A DNA stretch of 64,000 nucleotides from a bacterium (GTDB lineage: Bacteria > Gemmatimonadota > Gemmatimonadetes > Gemmatimonadales > Gemmatimonadaceae), in NCBI GenBank assembly GCA_027484025.1, contig JAIXTI010000081.1, forward strand, positions 1-64,000, read 5' to 3'. The notes under the pieces are model-generated. The model did no database searches, was not told the origin of the DNA, and saw nothing but the letters and a program-made list of their open reading frames with translations. Positions 5,871 to 13,795 of this stretch are shown in pieces. How positions within the stretch are numbered: the stretch's first letter is position 1; each line of letters starts with the position of its first letter. Position numbers and translations under genes: made by a program.

Positions 5871-6521
5871 TCAGCGCGATTGCAGCGGGATCAGCGGAGA
5901 GAGCTGCGCCGCCGGGAGCCATTGCTCCTTGGGTCGGAGGATCGTGAACAACACCGGTCCGAGGATGCTCGGCATCCGCACACGTACGCCTGTCGCATTC
6001 GCCCCGGCGACCAGCCGTGCCGTGGCCATCAGCCGCGACGGATGATGATCACCGGGCGTGGCGGTGACATCGGCCATGAACTCTTCGCGAAGTGCCTCTT
6101 GCACCGCGGATACCGTCGGCCACTGCCACGCCTGAAACGGACGCGAGGCGCCGTTGGGCATCCGAGCTACGAGCTCCGACTCGAGGACACGTCGAACGCT
6201 TGCGTAGCGTGTTGCGAATTGCTCCGGCGACTCGGCGGCGAGACGGGCCAGCGCGGCCCGCTGAGCCTGCGGCGTGGCCGACGCGCCGGACGTGGGAATC
6301 AATAGTCGCGACCAGGTGCACAGCAGGCGCACCTCCAGCGCACCGCCGTCACGAATGACCAGCGTGACGGCACTCTCGCGAAGCTCGTGAGCACTGAGCG
6401 GTGTCGCCCCGATGATGGTCAGCACCGTAACAACCAGGACAACCAACAGAACGAGACGCGTCCGCATCGGCGACGACCGCCACAACCGCCACCGCTGCGG
6501 TTCGACAGGGCGCGTGATCAT
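5871..6521 (-). CDS. Small exported protein, last of the ATGA-coupled operon
   Basis: Protein of 216 residues, not recognised. A basic N-terminus is followed by a strong hydrophobic segment (about 21-40) and a signal-peptidase-like site after PLSA, so the mature part begins HELRESAVTLVIRDGG. The mature domain is mixed alpha/beta with no catalytic motif I can name. The ATG at 6521 overlaps the stop of the YHYH gene as ATGA, which fixes the start; the much longer open frame upstream is antisense-type shadow. Tight translational coupling to the PEBP-YHYH gene suggests that it is a stoichiometric partner or accessory of that protein. It could be an unrelated periplasmic binding or assembly factor. 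Confidence 0.75.
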   Translation of the reverse strand: MITRPVEPQRWRLWRSSPMRTRLVLLVVLVVTVLTIIGATPLSAHELRESAVTLVIRDGGALEVRLLCTWSRLLIPTSGASATPQAQRAALARLAAESPEQFATRYASVRRVLESELVARMPNGASRPFQAWQWPTVSAVQEALREEFMADVTATPGDHHPSRLMATARLVAGANATGVRVRMPSILGPVLFTILRPKEQWLPAAQLSPLIPLQSR

Positions 6522-8011
6522 CGCGAGCGACAGTAACTGTTCGTGGCGGTCACCGCCCCGTCCGTTTGGAATTCGAAGAGCCAACAAGTCGCCGAGGTAC
6601 GCGAGTAGCGAATCACGTAGCTTCGTCCGCCATTGTCCCAACGCATCGTGCTGGTACCACCTATGGCAAGAGAGGCAGCTGAGGTTTCGAGCGTCATGTT
6701 CGACGACGGCATCGGCGTACCAGGCGGGCGCAGCGGCGCGAACTTCGACGCCTGTCCGGCGAGGTCGGGACTCGGCACGCCGTGAAAACAGCTCAGAACA
6801 TACGGACTCACGTCGGTGACATGATACGCATACGTCGTCGGTGCATTGGCGTGCGGCACCGTGTTGCCACCGCATCCCGCATCGCGGGTCGCAACGGTGC
6901 CATCGGGGTTGCGATAGCCGAAGATGGCGAAACCATCGAGCGCCCAGCCAATGGGGTGCGAATCCCAATACGCAGTGCCCTGCTCACTCATGAGACACAC
7001 CGGCGCGGCGTGGTAGTGATAATCGTCGGCCCGTCCTGCATGTCCGTTGCAGTCGTCGAGCTCGCCGAGCACCTTGGTGTCGCCGCCACCAGGTCCACTG
7101 CACCCGCCCTGTTTGCAGGGATTGAAGATAGGCACGCCGTTCACCGCAATGCCGATGGGTCCGTCGAGTGCGGAAGTCTTCGTAGCGCTCACCACGGGCT
7201 GCAATGGAATGCGCCAGGCGTTTGCCCCTGTGAAGTTCTGAGGAACAGGCACCTGCTGGTTCGTGGCCCGAATGCCGCGCATCATGGGATGCCGACTCTG
7301 AATGCCGGTAGATGCCACCGCTGCGTAGGTGGAATCGCAGGTCACGTCGACACCGTTCACCTGTCGCCATGGGGTGACAGAGGCGCGCACGTATCCGCAG
7401 TTGATCATGGCCTGTGTGCGTGTCACGCCTACGTTCATCGAAGCGGTCGCCACAGTGAGCGAGCGAATGGCGTCGAGCAGCGCCGCACCCGTTATCTGCG
7501 ACGGTGTACCGGTCACCCGACCTGCCGCCGAGAGCGCGTATACTTGAACGGTGTACTGCTTGAGGCCGGGCCCTTGCGAGCAGGGCGGCGCATAGTTGGT
7601 GCCGGCACCATCATCAGCTTGCCCCACGGTCCCAACGCTCGCACCGGTGGAAATCGACGTGGTCGTCGAGGGAATGCCGTACAGCACCCAGCTGTACTTC
7701 GTGGCCCCTGCCGTGGGGATGGTACTCATGAGCACTGCATACTCGGCCGTACCCACCGGCGCACCGCTCCAGGACAGCGGCGGGGACTTCGCCTCTCCAT
7801 CACACGTATAGGTGGTAGGCATGGTGGCGTTCGCCATATCACTGCTTTGCACCGTGAAGGTCGGTGACGTTGGTGTCGGCGTTGGTGTTGGCGTCGACGT
7901 GCCCGGAGACGTGGTCCGACTTTCACCACACCCAACCATGACCGCGACAACCAGTCCGGCTTTCAGGGAATGCCACAGCGCGTGCGCGGGTCGCTGCATT
8001 CTCATGCTCAT
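6518..8011 (-). CDS. Lipoprotein fusing a PEBP/YbhB-like domain to a YHYH domain
   Basis: Protein of 497 residues with lipobox VMVGC (Cys28) and a Pro-Thr linker (about 38-50). It then has a YbhB/RKIP-like PEBP domain (about 52-205) and a YHYH domain (about 225-420) with DDYHYH at 329-334 and IGWALDGFAIFGY at 354-366. The PEBP core keeps DGEAKSPPLSW, but the usual DPDAP ligand loop is replaced by MSTIPTAGATKYSWV, so classical anion binding may be lost. YHYH domains occur in exported proteins of unknown function; the His cluster suggests metal binding. Both ends overlap neighbours by ATGA, tying it to the metallophosphoesterase upstream and the small secreted gene downstream. A short C-terminal beta domain follows. 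Confidence 0.88.
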   Translation of the reverse strand: MSMRMQRPAHALWHSLKAGLVVAVMVGCGESRTTSPGTSTPTPTPTPTSPTFTVQSSDMANATMPTTYTCDGEAKSPPLSWSGAPVGTAEYAVLMSTIPTAGATKYSWVLYGIPSTTTSISTGASVGTVGQADDGAGTNYAPPCSQGPGLKQYTVQVYALSAAGRVTGTPSQITGAALLDAIRSLTVATASMNVGVTRTQAMINCGYVRASVTPWRQVNGVDVTCDSTYAAVASTGIQSRHPMMRGIRATNQQVPVPQNFTGANAWRIPLQPVVSATKTSALDGPIGIAVNGVPIFNPCKQGGCSGPGGGDTKVLGELDDCNGHAGRADDYHYHAAPVCLMSEQGTAYWDSHPIGWALDGFAIFGYRNPDGTVATRDAGCGGNTVPHANAPTTYAYHVTDVSPYVLSCFHGVPSPDLAGQASKFAPLRPPGTPMPSSNMTLETSAASLAIGGTSTMRWDNGGRSYVIRYSRTSATCWLFEFQTDGAVTATNSYCRSR

Positions 8012-9666
8012 CTCGCAGGTAGAAGATCGAACTGATCGGCGATGGCGGCGTTCCCAGCGGTCAGCCGGGAACGGACATAGGCCACGGTTGCCTTCGATGG
8101 CGAAACGGTGACGCGAATGTGTCCGGAGCTACCCAGCAGCACCCCGGAGAGATAGCCGTAGTCGGCGGCGCTCGCAGTCGCGTTTTCTCTGGCAAAACTC
8201 GGCTGCGGCACCTCGAGATAACGGATCCCATCGCGCAGCTGATTCACGTACAGGTGGTCGTGACCGTGGAAGACAGCCGACACACGATGACGCACGAGAA
8301 GTTCGTGGATGGGAAGCGGCCAGCCGGCGCGTCGCGCCGCAAACCCCGCGCTGCCATCGGCGTTCGCTCCACCCCACTCGAAGAACTGCGACGCTTCCGC
8401 GCCACCACGTGCTTCGAAGCCCTGACCGCCGACAAGGTGGTGAAGGAAGACGAAGGTGTACTTCGCCCGATTCTCCTCGAGCGTGCGCGTGAGCCAGTCG
8501 TACTGTTCGCGGCCCAGCGTCCATGCCCAGCTGGTGGTCGCGGCACTAGCCTTCGCGGTCGTGAACGCGAACGGATCGAGCACGATGAACTGCGCATCGC
8601 CCCACTGCCACGCATAGTAGTTGCGCGGTACCGCCGCCGTCGGGAACGATGAATAGAACGCGTTTGGCGACACGGTGGCAAACCACCGGAGGCGCTGGGA
8701 GCTGGCCCAAGCCGCATTGGCACTCAGCCATCCGGCTTCGGCATCATGATTGCCTTGCACCAGATACAGCGGCAATTGCGTCCCAACGAGCCCGAAGTAG
8801 TATCGCTGCGCCACGTAGTGTGCCGCGGCGTCGCGGAAATCCGAATACTTGTCCGACATGAACGTGTCGCCAAGATCGACGAGAAAATCGGCGCTGTCGG
8901 CCAGCATGTTGCGCAACGTGTTCGTGTATACGTTCACATCGGAGTTCTCGTCGAGATGCGAGTCCGCTTGCATCACGAACCGGTAGGTGCTGCCCGATGC
9001 CCGGGCCGTGCGTACCTGCCCTTCGTACACAAGCGCCGGAGCGGTGGCCGTGATGCGATAGCGGTATGCGCGATCGGGGACGAGACCGGAAAGCTCGAGA
9101 ACGGACGGCTCGCCAGCGGAAAGCGTCGCGCTGACGCTCCGGCCACTTTCGAGCAACGTAAGAGTGACGGTGCGCGCTGTCGCCGAGTACAGACTGAGAC
9201 TCACCGCCGTATCGGTGGGGCGAATGGGGACGACGTTGAAATCGAATGGAGGCACCGTCGTCTGAAACACCCCTGTCGGGGCCGTGGTGCGCACGGTGAT
9301 GGTCGCCGTCCCCGTCACGGTGCCCACAGCCGCTGTGACCACGGCGCTGCCGACACTCACTCCCGTGACCACCCCCGAGCCGGACACTGTGGCGACTTGC
9401 GGTGCGCTGCTGGTCCACGTCACGGTTTGCCCCGTGATCGCCGCACCGCTTGCCGAAAGAATGCTGGCCACCAATGCGCTGGTGCCGCCGGGGGCCACCG
9501 TCGCTGACGCGGGGGTTACCGCGACCTGAGTCACGACTGGAGCCTGTGGTGGCGGCACGACCACCGCGGCGGGGCTGTCTCCACCGCACGCCCCGAGCCC
9601 CACACAGACCAGCAGGGCTATGCCGTCATGAATAACGCCGCGCGATGTACGCAGGTCGGATTTCAT
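8008..9666 (-). CDS. Metallophosphoesterase lipoprotein with Ig-like (Big2) domain
   Basis: Predicted surface or periplasmic lipoprotein of 552 residues, lipobox GLGAC (Cys27). A bacterial Ig-like Big2 domain (about 44-122) precedes a fibronectin-like stretch and then a calcineurin-type metallophosphoesterase domain. The dimetal motifs are seen in order: ADSH, DLGD, GNHD, FLHH and GHDH. This indicates hydrolysis of a phosphomono- or diester outside the cytoplasm. ATG at 9666 overlaps the stop of the upstream paralogue as ATGA and is followed at once by a signal sequence; the longer open frame upstream is a shadow of that gene. It is a tandem paralogue of the gene at 9663-11162 but has the extra Ig-like domain. 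Confidence 0.92.
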   Translation of the reverse strand: MKSDLRTSRGVIHDGIALLVCVGLGACGGDSPAAVVVPPPQAPVVTQVAVTPASATVAPGGTSALVASILSASGAAITGQTVTWTSSAPQVATVSGSGVVTGVSVGSAVVTAAVGTVTGTATITVRTTAPTGVFQTTVPPFDFNVVPIRPTDTAVSLSLYSATARTVTLTLLESGRSVSATLSAGEPSVLELSGLVPDRAYRYRITATAPALVYEGQVRTARASGSTYRFVMQADSHLDENSDVNVYTNTLRNMLADSADFLVDLGDTFMSDKYSDFRDAAAHYVAQRYYFGLVGTQLPLYLVQGNHDAEAGWLSANAAWASSQRLRWFATVSPNAFYSSFPTAAVPRNYYAWQWGDAQFIVLDPFAFTTAKASAATTSWAWTLGREQYDWLTRTLEENRAKYTFVFLHHLVGGQGFEARGGAEASQFFEWGGANADGSAGFAARRAGWPLPIHELLVRHRVSAVFHGHDHLYVNQLRDGIRYLEVPQPSFARENATASAADYGYLSGVLLGSSGHIRVTVSPSKATVAYVRSRLTAGNAAIADQFDLLPAR

Positions 9667-11162
9667 GGGATTACGTAGCTGTAGGCGACCGTGCCGCTCA
9701 CACGCCCTCCGCCTTCGTCGGCAGGTCGGTACATGCGCACATACTCCACGTTTGCACCGGTCGGACCGACGGTAACGCGGGTGTACCCGGAGTTCGGGTG
9801 CTTGACACCGCTGGTGTAGGCGTCGGCATTGAACAGCGAGTAGTTGGGATCGGCGGGTTCGGAAATCGATTGATATACGACGCCATCGAGTTCCTGCCGC
9901 ACCCAGATGTGATCGTGTCCCTGGAAGAACGCGCTCACCTTGTTCTGCACGAAGAGCTGATGAATGGGCGCGGCCCATGTTGGCCGGCGTGCAGGAAACT
10001 CCGTGTTGCCATTGGGGCTCCGCCCTCCCCATTCATAAAGACGTGCGACCTCGATGCCCCCGCGCCCGGTCCCCATCACGTGGTGCGCGAACACGAACTT
10101 GTAGCGCGACGTACTCTGTTCGAGTGTACGCTTGAGCCACTGATACTGCGCATCGCCGTGCGTGACCGTCCACAGATCGGAGCGCTTGTCGCCACCGAAG
10201 AACGGATTGTCCACGCACACATCCGATCCCCAGTACGGATCGATCATCACGAAGAGCGCGTCGCCCCAGGTAAAGGCGTAGTAGTTCCGCAACAGACCGA
10301 TGTGCGGTACCTGCTCGGCGTTGCCGGAATAGAAGCCGTCCGGCGCGGGCTGTGCGTATAGACTGTTGCGCGCGACCTGCGCCCACACCGCCGGATTGTT
10401 CGGCGTCCCGTCGAGCAGGTAACGCGCAGCCTGCTCGTGATTGCCATTCACCAGGAAGACCGGACTCGACGCGCCAATCAATCCCAGATACGGACGCTGC
10501 AACGTATACCGCTGCCGGACCTGCGCCGCCGTGATAGTCGCCGGATCGAGAATATCGATGCTGAAGTCATCGCCGAGCATTACATAGAAGTCGAGCGAGT
10601 CCGCAGCGGCCGTGTTGAGTGTGCGCTGGTAGAGAGTGGCATCGAACTGACTGCGCTCACGTTCGGGATGTGAGTCGCCTTGGATGCCGAACCGGAACGT
10701 CGTGCCTCTCGCCGGCGCCGTTCGAAACGAGCGTTCGACCGATGGGCCGCTCGCCGCAGCACCGTTGAACTGCAACCGGTAGTAGTAGCGCGTCCCAGGT
10801 GTGAGGTCGCCGATTGGCACTTCTACTGGAACGTCCGGCGCGAGGGCAACGGTACCCGTGCGCCTGGTGTAACGACCGGGCGCCGTACCGATCAGCAGAG
10901 AAACGTCTCCGCCTTGGTCGGCGCTCCAGACATTGGCACCGACGCTGCGGTCAGGGGGCCGCCCCAAGACAACCGAACCACGAAAGGCTCCCTCGGTCCC
11001 CGTGGGCAACACGGCAGGAGTACTGGGCTCCTGCTGGGCAGGGGCCGTCGCTGCGTCGGGCGAGCGACAGGCGAGACCGACGAGCAGGATCGATGCCCGG
11101 CAGATCACATGGGAGAGACCACGCGCAGGACGCGGTGCGGCCAAGGCGGGACGTATGGACAT
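9663..11162 (-). CDS. Metallophosphoesterase lipoprotein, first gene of coupled operon
   Basis: Exported calcineurin-like phosphoesterase of 499 residues with lipobox LVGLAC (Cys32). A fibronectin/purple-acid-phosphatase-like N-terminal beta domain (about 60-150, ending PGTRYYYRLQF) precedes the catalytic domain. The motifs are GDSH, LGDD, NGNHE, FAHH and QGHDH, a full set of metal ligands. Substrate is not predictable. The ATG lacks an obvious Shine-Dalgarno sequence. About 220 bases separate it from the next minus-strand gene upstream, so the operon promoter should lie in 11163-11382. The stop overlaps the next start (ATGA at 9663-9666), the first of three such junctions in this cluster. 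Confidence 0.92.
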   Translation of the reverse strand: MSIRPALAAPRPARGLSHVICRASILLVGLACRSPDAATAPAQQEPSTPAVLPTGTEGAFRGSVVLGRPPDRSVGANVWSADQGGDVSLLIGTAPGRYTRRTGTVALAPDVPVEVPIGDLTPGTRYYYRLQFNGAAASGPSVERSFRTAPARGTTFRFGIQGDSHPERERSQFDATLYQRTLNTAAADSLDFYVMLGDDFSIDILDPATITAAQVRQRYTLQRPYLGLIGASSPVFLVNGNHEQAARYLLDGTPNNPAVWAQVARNSLYAQPAPDGFYSGNAEQVPHIGLLRNYYAFTWGDALFVMIDPYWGSDVCVDNPFFGGDKRSDLWTVTHGDAQYQWLKRTLEQSTSRYKFVFAHHVMGTGRGGIEVARLYEWGGRSPNGNTEFPARRPTWAAPIHQLFVQNKVSAFFQGHDHIWVRQELDGVVYQSISEPADPNYSLFNADAYTSGVKHPNSGYTRVTVGPTGANVEYVRMYRPADEGGGRVSGTVAYSYVIP

Positions 11163-13123: not shown

Positions 13124-13795
13124 GTGTCTTTCCCAAGCCTTCGCCACCGTGTCGGCGTGGTGGCCGCCCTGCTGAGTGTCGGCGCCATGGCCGCGTGCAC
13201 CGGAGCGCGCGCGACGCGCCCGCTGACGCCGGCGCAACTCGCCGACCGCGATCATGGCATTCCACCCTACACGGCAGCCGACGTCGCCTTCATGCAGGGG
13301 ATGATCGGGCACCATGCCCAGGCCATTACCATGTCGGCGATGGCCGAGCCAAACGGCGCCGGGCCCGAGGTCAAGGTGCTCGCCGGCCGCATCGCGGTGG
13401 CGCAAACCGACGAGATCGCCTTCATGCAAAGCTGGCTGCGCGCGCGCAAACAGGAAGTGCCGCAACCGGGCGATGCCCATGCCGCGCACGATGCGCACGC
13501 GGGGCACGCTGGCATGGCCATGTCAGGTACCAGCACCGGTAGCATGCCCGGTATGCTCAATGCCGCGCAGCTCGATACGCTGCGCTCGTCCAAGGGCGCC
13601 GCGTTCGACTGGTACTTCCTGACGTACATGATTCAGCACCACCGCGGCGCCATCAGCATGGTGGATGAACTCATGCAGGCCAACGGTGCCGCACAAGACG
13701 ACGATGTCTTCAAGTTCGTGTCCGATGTCGTCGCGGATCAGAGTACGGAAGTCGATCGCATGGAGCTGATGCTGCGCAAGCGCTCGCGCCCGTGA
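13124..13795 (+). CDS. DUF305-family lipoprotein, His/Met-rich
   Basis: Exported protein of 223 residues with lipobox GAMAAC (Cys25) after a GTG start at 13124; no ATG is available before the signal sequence. Two DUF305 signature stretches are present, FMQGMIGHHAQAITMS and MIQHHRGAISMVDE, each with HH pairs, separated by a His/Ala/Met-rich linker (HAAHDAHAGHAGMAMS). DUF305 proteins have a ferritin-like helical fold and are often near copper-handling genes; the His and Met density here fits metal binding, but this is inference. The LVIVD-repeat gene follows 62 bases downstream and may be co-expressed. Confidence 0.88.
   Translation: MSFPSLRHRVGVVAALLSVGAMAACTGARATRPLTPAQLADRDHGIPPYTAADVAFMQGMIGHHAQAITMSAMAEPNGAGPEVKVLAGRIAVAQTDEIAFMQSWLRARKQEVPQPGDAHAAHDAHAGHAGMAMSGTSTGSMPGMLNAAQLDTLRSSKGAAFDWYFLTYMIQHHRGAISMVDELMQANGAAQDDDVFKFVSDVVADQSTEVDRMELMLRKRSRP

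Follow-up and report, generated by a model that had tools for sequence, protein, structure and literature searches.

Four overlapping genes for exported proteins

The window analyzed here is a stretch of 64,000 nucleotides from a bacterium of the Gemmatimonadaceae (assembly GCA_027484025.1, contig JAIXTI010000081.1, positions 1 to 64,000). Its minus strand carries four overlapping genes, referred to as A to D. Gene A (9663..11162) encodes an exported metallophosphoesterase (MPE) of 499 amino acids with the catalytic domain at residues 156-419. Gene B (8008..9666) encodes a second MPE of 552 amino acids, a lipoprotein with an N-terminal Big_2 domain. The product of gene C (6518..8011) is a lipoprotein of 497 amino acids that combines a PEBP domain (residues 63-191) with a YHYH domain (residues 266-367). 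Finally, gene D (5871..6521) encodes an exported protein of 216 amino acids, which has His as its predicted mature start and an anglerase-like fold in its AlphaFold2 (AF2) model. Neighboring genes share the four bases ATGA at 9663..9666 (A/B, with the start of B at 9666), 8008..8011 (B/C), and 6518..6521 (C/D). A preliminary description of this DNA had listed the same genes and overlaps, and its coordinates proved exact when the sequence was read again.

Pfam returned the domains that had been named there, i.e. two metallophosphoesterases and a PEBP-YHYH fusion: Metallophos in A (30.0 bits) and B (35.8 bits; cut-off 21.5), Big_2 also in B, and PBP (60.5 bits) together with YHYH (68.3 bits; cut-off 25) in C. 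All four proteins had been described as exported, three of them by lipobox. Export signals were indeed predicted in all four; B has a canonical lipobox (LGAC), that of C (MVGC) is plausible, and that of A (GLAC) is poor, while several relatives of A have canonical lipoboxes. For D, a cleavage site of the signal-peptidase-I type between Ala and His and no lipobox were predicted. A and B each retain intact MPE metal motifs (in A: GDSH, GDD, GNHE, HH, and GHDH). In an alignment of 37 A/B proteins, the invariant columns were D115, H117, G149 D150, G192 N193 H194, H312, and H368 D369 H370, and the calcineurin-like motifs D-x-H, GDxx, GNH[DE], HH, and GHDH were all present in the family. The best sequence matches of A and B in the PDB were purple acid phosphatases.

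The ATGA coupling of the four genes is not due to chance, because a relative of the same genus (genome G146, locus L034) keeps all three ATGA junctions and because 26 of the 66 C-D junctions in other genomes, across phyla, overlap by ATGA or GTGA, with a 1-base overlap in five more. At the B/C junction, ATGA was also found in locus L051. The C/D overlap is the most ambiguous of the three, since D has an alternative in-frame ATG at 6467, from which the signal peptide would have 26 residues instead of the 44 predicted from the ATGA start.

The C-D core and its frequent phosphoesterase partners

We compared 79 relative loci from Gemmatimonadota, Burkholderiales, other Gammaproteobacteria, Alphaproteobacteria, Acidobacteriota, and Leptospiraceae, most of them from metagenome-assembled genomes (MAGs). 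Gene calls were anchored by hidden Markov models (HMMs), and calls of single open reading frames (ORFs) were discarded because shadow ORFs inflate them where the GC content is high; outside Gemmatimonadota, the labels A and B stand for the best-scoring HMM and not for strict orthology. Of the 74 loci with downstream sequence, 66 have D directly downstream of C by profile HMMs. At least two MPEs of the A/B type were present within 9 kb in 16 of the 46 loci having 5 kb on both sides. Three arrangements of the four genes were found: (i) the order A-B-C-D in the window and in L034, L049, L050, L073, L083, L105, and L112; (ii) the order C-D-A-B in L074, L087, L093, L096, L100, and L116; and (iii) divergent AB and CD blocks in L067, L076, L080, L103, and L113. 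The four-gene set recurs in Gemmatimonadota, Pseudomonadota, and Acidobacteriota. Moreover, two Acidobacteriota MAGs encode MPE-TIG-PEBP-YHYH fusions in a single ORF (L086, 1228 amino acids; L111, 1829 amino acids), and D is the next gene in both.

Co-occurrence was assessed by Fisher tests without correction for phylogeny. Among 148 Gemmatimonadaceae genomes, C was present in seven and D in eight, with seven in common (p ~3 × 10−11); A was present in seven, six of which it shares with C (p = 4 × 10−9), and in two genomes (G045 and G145) it is located on a different contig from C. Among 245 Burkholderiaceae genomes, C and D occurred in the identical four (p ~7 × 10−9), and MPEs in four, three of them shared with C (p = 7 × 10−6); one genome (G241) has MPEs without D. 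The A-type MPE is missing from 8 of 11 further genomes with C and D. Because the distributions of C and D are near-identical and the two are found without the MPEs, C-D is the core, and the MPE pair is a frequent but dispensable accessory. The view of D as a minor partner, which the preliminary description had taken, is contradicted by both the adjacency of C and D and their shared genome distribution. That the genes form one functional unit, as had also been proposed, is well supported by the linkage in three gene orders, the fusions, and the co-occurrence across 393 genomes. In particular, the fusions of MPE, PEBP, and YHYH and the recurrence in three arrangements argue for a functional unit rather than chance, and the association of the YHYH gene with paired MPEs extends to several phyla.

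The window proteins A and C are closer to those of a genome of another genus (G114; 86% and 80%) than to those of genomes of the same genus (79-80% and 72%), a pattern suggestive of transfer or taxonomic misplacement.

Two other protein families were noted at these loci. One, a secreted family, is marked by the motif DNWF...EDSV...ERSFNAE and was found repeatedly close to C or YHYH genes (L095, L097, L064, L075, L109, L115, L120, L124, and L249). The other is a long exported protein that matches LTXXQ/Metal_resist weakly and turns up repeatedly in the vicinity of C-D (L067, L074, L075, L087, L094, and L116); in L116 it sits between D and the MPEs.

An invariant, predicted N-terminal histidine in the partner of a YHYH protein

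No credible Pfam match was obtained for D or for any of its 61 homologues, and the DUF6702 model matched none of the 61. His45 of D (codon at 6387..6389), the predicted mature residue 1, is present in 61 of 61 homologues and is the sole invariant residue apart from Met. It is preceded by Ala or Gly in 57 of 60 homologues, in an A-x-A-like signal-peptide site. The AF2 model of D (predicted local distance difference test, pLDDT, 93.7) is an Ig-like beta-sandwich whose strands 2 and 3 are separated by three helices. In a VIA-align comparison of this model, 9gce ranked first (Z 9.5, 133 aligned residues, root-mean-square deviation 4.2), with the N-termini in register. The next matches were the Zn-binding proteins PA4063 and ZrgA (Z ~7), followed by unrelated Ig folds. 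The structure 9gce is the Ang-1 anglerase domain (RbAng-1a) of a HupE/UreJ-2 permease. According to the study describing it, the domain binds Cu with a dissociation constant of 74 nM via its N-terminal His1, three helices likewise lie between its strands 2 and 3, and a DALI match to 8F1B was obtained (PMC12537917).

For C, the AF2 model (pLDDT 87) shows the PEBP fold of YbhB/YbcL at Z 21-22; the matches listed for this model were filled by the PEBP domain, with none listed for the YHYH half. The ligand motifs of PEBP proteins, DPDxP and GxHR/HxxR, are replaced in C by STIPTAG and GLKQY. This replacement is family-wide, the consensus in 69 C homologues being TTLPGDG and GAKxYTF. The YHYH motif itself (Y331 H332 Y333 H334; 7010..7021, minus strand) is kept, together with D319, H324, and D359, in 137-138 of 138-139 YHYH sequences. 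YHYH was predicted to be a metal-dependent (Zn) hydrolase of phage tails, with the metal bound via three His and an Asp (Iyer and colleagues, PMC7824862), and a literature search found no functional study of any YHYH protein. A phage or plasmid origin was considered and rejected: C had no match among 50,697 phage records, and PEBP and/or YHYH are arranged differently in five plasmid records. On plasmids of Rhodobacterales, two neighboring genes encode PEBP and YHYH separately. The genome of the window also has a second, stand-alone YHYH gene (G000:C127:81282-81818); no SCO1 was found in the surrounding stretch examined.

YHYH genes elsewhere have metal-handling neighbors. In 8 of 10 Gemmatimonadaceae loci, a stand-alone YHYH gene is followed by SCO1/SenC (Pfam-confirmed for one), and the same was seen in another Gemmatimonadota family (in all, L040-L043, L045-L048, L178, L179, L181-L184, L186, and L194-L196). 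HupE/UreJ_2 genes with a predicted mature N-terminal His adjoin C-D in L064, L122, L060, and L061, and stand-alone YHYH genes in L232, L235, L241, and L246. Since SCO1 or HupE genes would number only a handful in a genome of 4-5 Mb, finding one within ~1.5 kb by chance should have a probability far below 1%. In L234 and L237, YHYH is followed by a gene that resembles the N-terminal-His domain without the permease. In L042 (about 7322-7729), a MORN-repeat-like lipoprotein, recognized by eye only, seemingly lies between YHYH and SCO1/SenC. Histidine kinases encoded near several C-D loci score best with TIGR01386, a heavy-metal sensor model, without reaching its cut-off; a two-component system was rejected as a universal regulator, being found at a subset of C-D loci only.

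From these observations we infer, with a probability of roughly 45%, that D serves the YHYH metalloprotein C as an extracytoplasmic metallochaperone whose metal is probably Cu, and that the MPEs act on the same substrate as C. D would capture a transition metal via its N-terminal His, most likely Cu because its structural relative, the anglerase domain, binds Cu, and would hand it to the YHYH site of C as a dedicated chaperone outside the cytoplasm. This role of D is favored because YHYH genes elsewhere adjoin SCO1/SenC or N-terminal-His HupE permeases, which appear to play the part of D for other YHYH proteins. A and B, or the MPE fused to C in some Acidobacteriota, may then act with C on one extracellular substrate, probably an organophosphate ester, and the ATGA coupling would hold the four products in proportion.

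Several points weigh against this reading. The genomes behind the co-occurrence counts are not independent samples, and a joint substrate with the MPEs is not obligatory, as the C-D genomes without an A-type MPE demonstrate. The second metal ligand of D is not fixed (His116 in 51 of 61 homologues, His114 in 39 of 59). The Z-score against 9gce exceeds the background only modestly, and Foldseek alone returned nothing but background for the D model, with no significant match. Sequence membership of D in the family of HupE N-domains found no support from hhalign, which gave non-significant probabilities of 0.1% and 0.8%; the 0.8% alignment pairs His1 with His1. Judging from its model, D may thus work like an anglerase domain as a fold-level relative, family membership being unsupported by sequence profiles. 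As for the metal, the relatives of D at Z ~7 bind Zn, which by analogy would speak against Cu, and the prediction published for YHYH (PMC7824862) is that of a Zn hydrolase rather than a Cu protein.

The preliminary description had seen in the four proteins an assembly that processes a phosphorylated substrate. Extended to phosphorus scavenging, this would assign dephosphorylation to A and B, binding of the phospho-group via the PEBP domain to C, and the part of a minor structural partner to D. We regard this alternative as possible but doubtful. The intact active sites of A and B, their relatedness to purple acid phosphatases, and the existence of the MPE-PEBP-YHYH fusions are in its favor, and the intact sites lend weak support to a phosphorylated substrate as such. 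On the other hand, with the PEBP ligand motifs lost throughout the 69 homologues, it is the MPEs that the idea now depends on, and most C-D loci are without an MPE pair, the C-D pair persisting in their absence. Phosphorus scavenging also leaves the invariant N-terminal His of D and the recurrent SCO1 and HupE neighbors of YHYH unexplained.

D could instead be a metallochaperone or scavenger for Zn, Ni, or Fe/Mn whose clients are the dinuclear centers of A and B, not YHYH. The Zn-binding by PA4063 and ZrgA, its second-best structural matches, would fit, as would the high genome overlap of MPEs and D in Gemmatimonadaceae and the metallophosphatases found among the genome neighbors of Ang-2 HupE genes (PMC12537917). 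We consider such a role improbable, however, since D tracks C and not the MPEs: some C-D genomes lack an A-type MPE, and Burkholderiaceae genome G241 carries MPEs without D. Least probable by far is a horizontally moving cassette in which linkage stems from co-transfer more than from joint function, for although the patchy spread (7 of 148 Gemmatimonadaceae and 4 of 245 Burkholderiaceae genomes) and the closeness of A and C to G114 agree with it, passive co-transfer would predict neither gene fusions nor re-association in three orders, and the conserved overlapping junctions and the MPEs kept on other contigs in G045 and G145 would not be expected.

If D is indeed the metallochaperone of C, the two would be a new envelope metal chaperone-client pair, and one connected, in bacteria common in fresh water and soil, with phosphoester chemistry outside the cell. 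The YHYH domain (PF14240) has a wide distribution that includes bacteria, phage tails, and diatoms, and its repeated placement beside three kinds of extracytoplasmic metal-handling protein offers a first testable functional context for this domain. A much broader and rather speculative proposal is that YHYH proteins constitute a new class of secreted metalloenzymes that plausibly depend on Cu, that each of them receives its metal outside the cytoplasm from a dedicated partner (a free anglerase-like D, an anglerase-HupE permease, or SCO1/SenC), and that in the present operon type the enzyme acts together with MPEs on a common substrate.

Within the window, the transcript may extend past D, because a gene on the same strand encoding an exported beta-lactamase-fold serine hydrolase (4603 to ~5802; PF00144, 166.7 bits) follows after ~70 bp and could be its fifth gene. 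This hydrolase had no consistent homologue near C-D loci elsewhere and is not a conserved partner. A scan for sigma-70 promoters was uninformative (none found, 1.2 expected). On the plus strand, ~2 kb from A, a gene for a DUF305 protein was noted (13124-13795; 133.9 bits), whose connection with the operon is unproven; CopM, which binds copper, is a DUF305 member.

Comparison with known systems

The four-gene operon is built from known kinds of parts, and metal handling is what the earlier reading lacked. A and B resemble purple acid phosphatases and other calcineurin-like MPEs in their motifs and in an N-terminal domain like Pur_ac_phosph_N. They differ from purple acid phosphatases in the missing tyrosine ligand of the GDxxY motif, which reads GDDFS in A and GDTFM in B (family consensus GDTFxx). 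SCO1/SenC copper chaperones, which have a thioredoxin fold and are unrelated to D, adjoin stand-alone YHYH genes in Gemmatimonadota in the place that D takes beside PEBP-YHYH.

C has the same fold as the bacterial PEBP proteins YbhB, YbcL, and CT736 (Z 21-22), but is set apart by its replaced ligand-site motifs and by the YHYH fusion. With the YHYH proteins of PF14240 it shares the domain with the conserved three His and Asp (PMC7824862), whereas its fusion to PEBP, its membrane anchor, and its dedicated N-terminal-His partner distinguish it from them.

The closest parallel to D are the anglerase domains Ang-1 and Ang-2 of HupE/UreJ-2 (PMC12537917), a study in which YHYH goes unmentioned. D shares with these domains the export, the invariant (in D, predicted) mature N-terminal His, and the layout of helices and strands, and N-terminal-His HupE genes adjoin YHYH or C-D in several genomes. 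In contrast to the anglerase domains, D is free-standing, with no fused permease and no detectable sequence likeness; even in L064, L122, L060, and L061, HupE is a separate adjacent gene. D thus adds to the copper-fishing anglerase domain a free-standing, fold-level relative that is partnered by a PEBP-YHYH lipoprotein.

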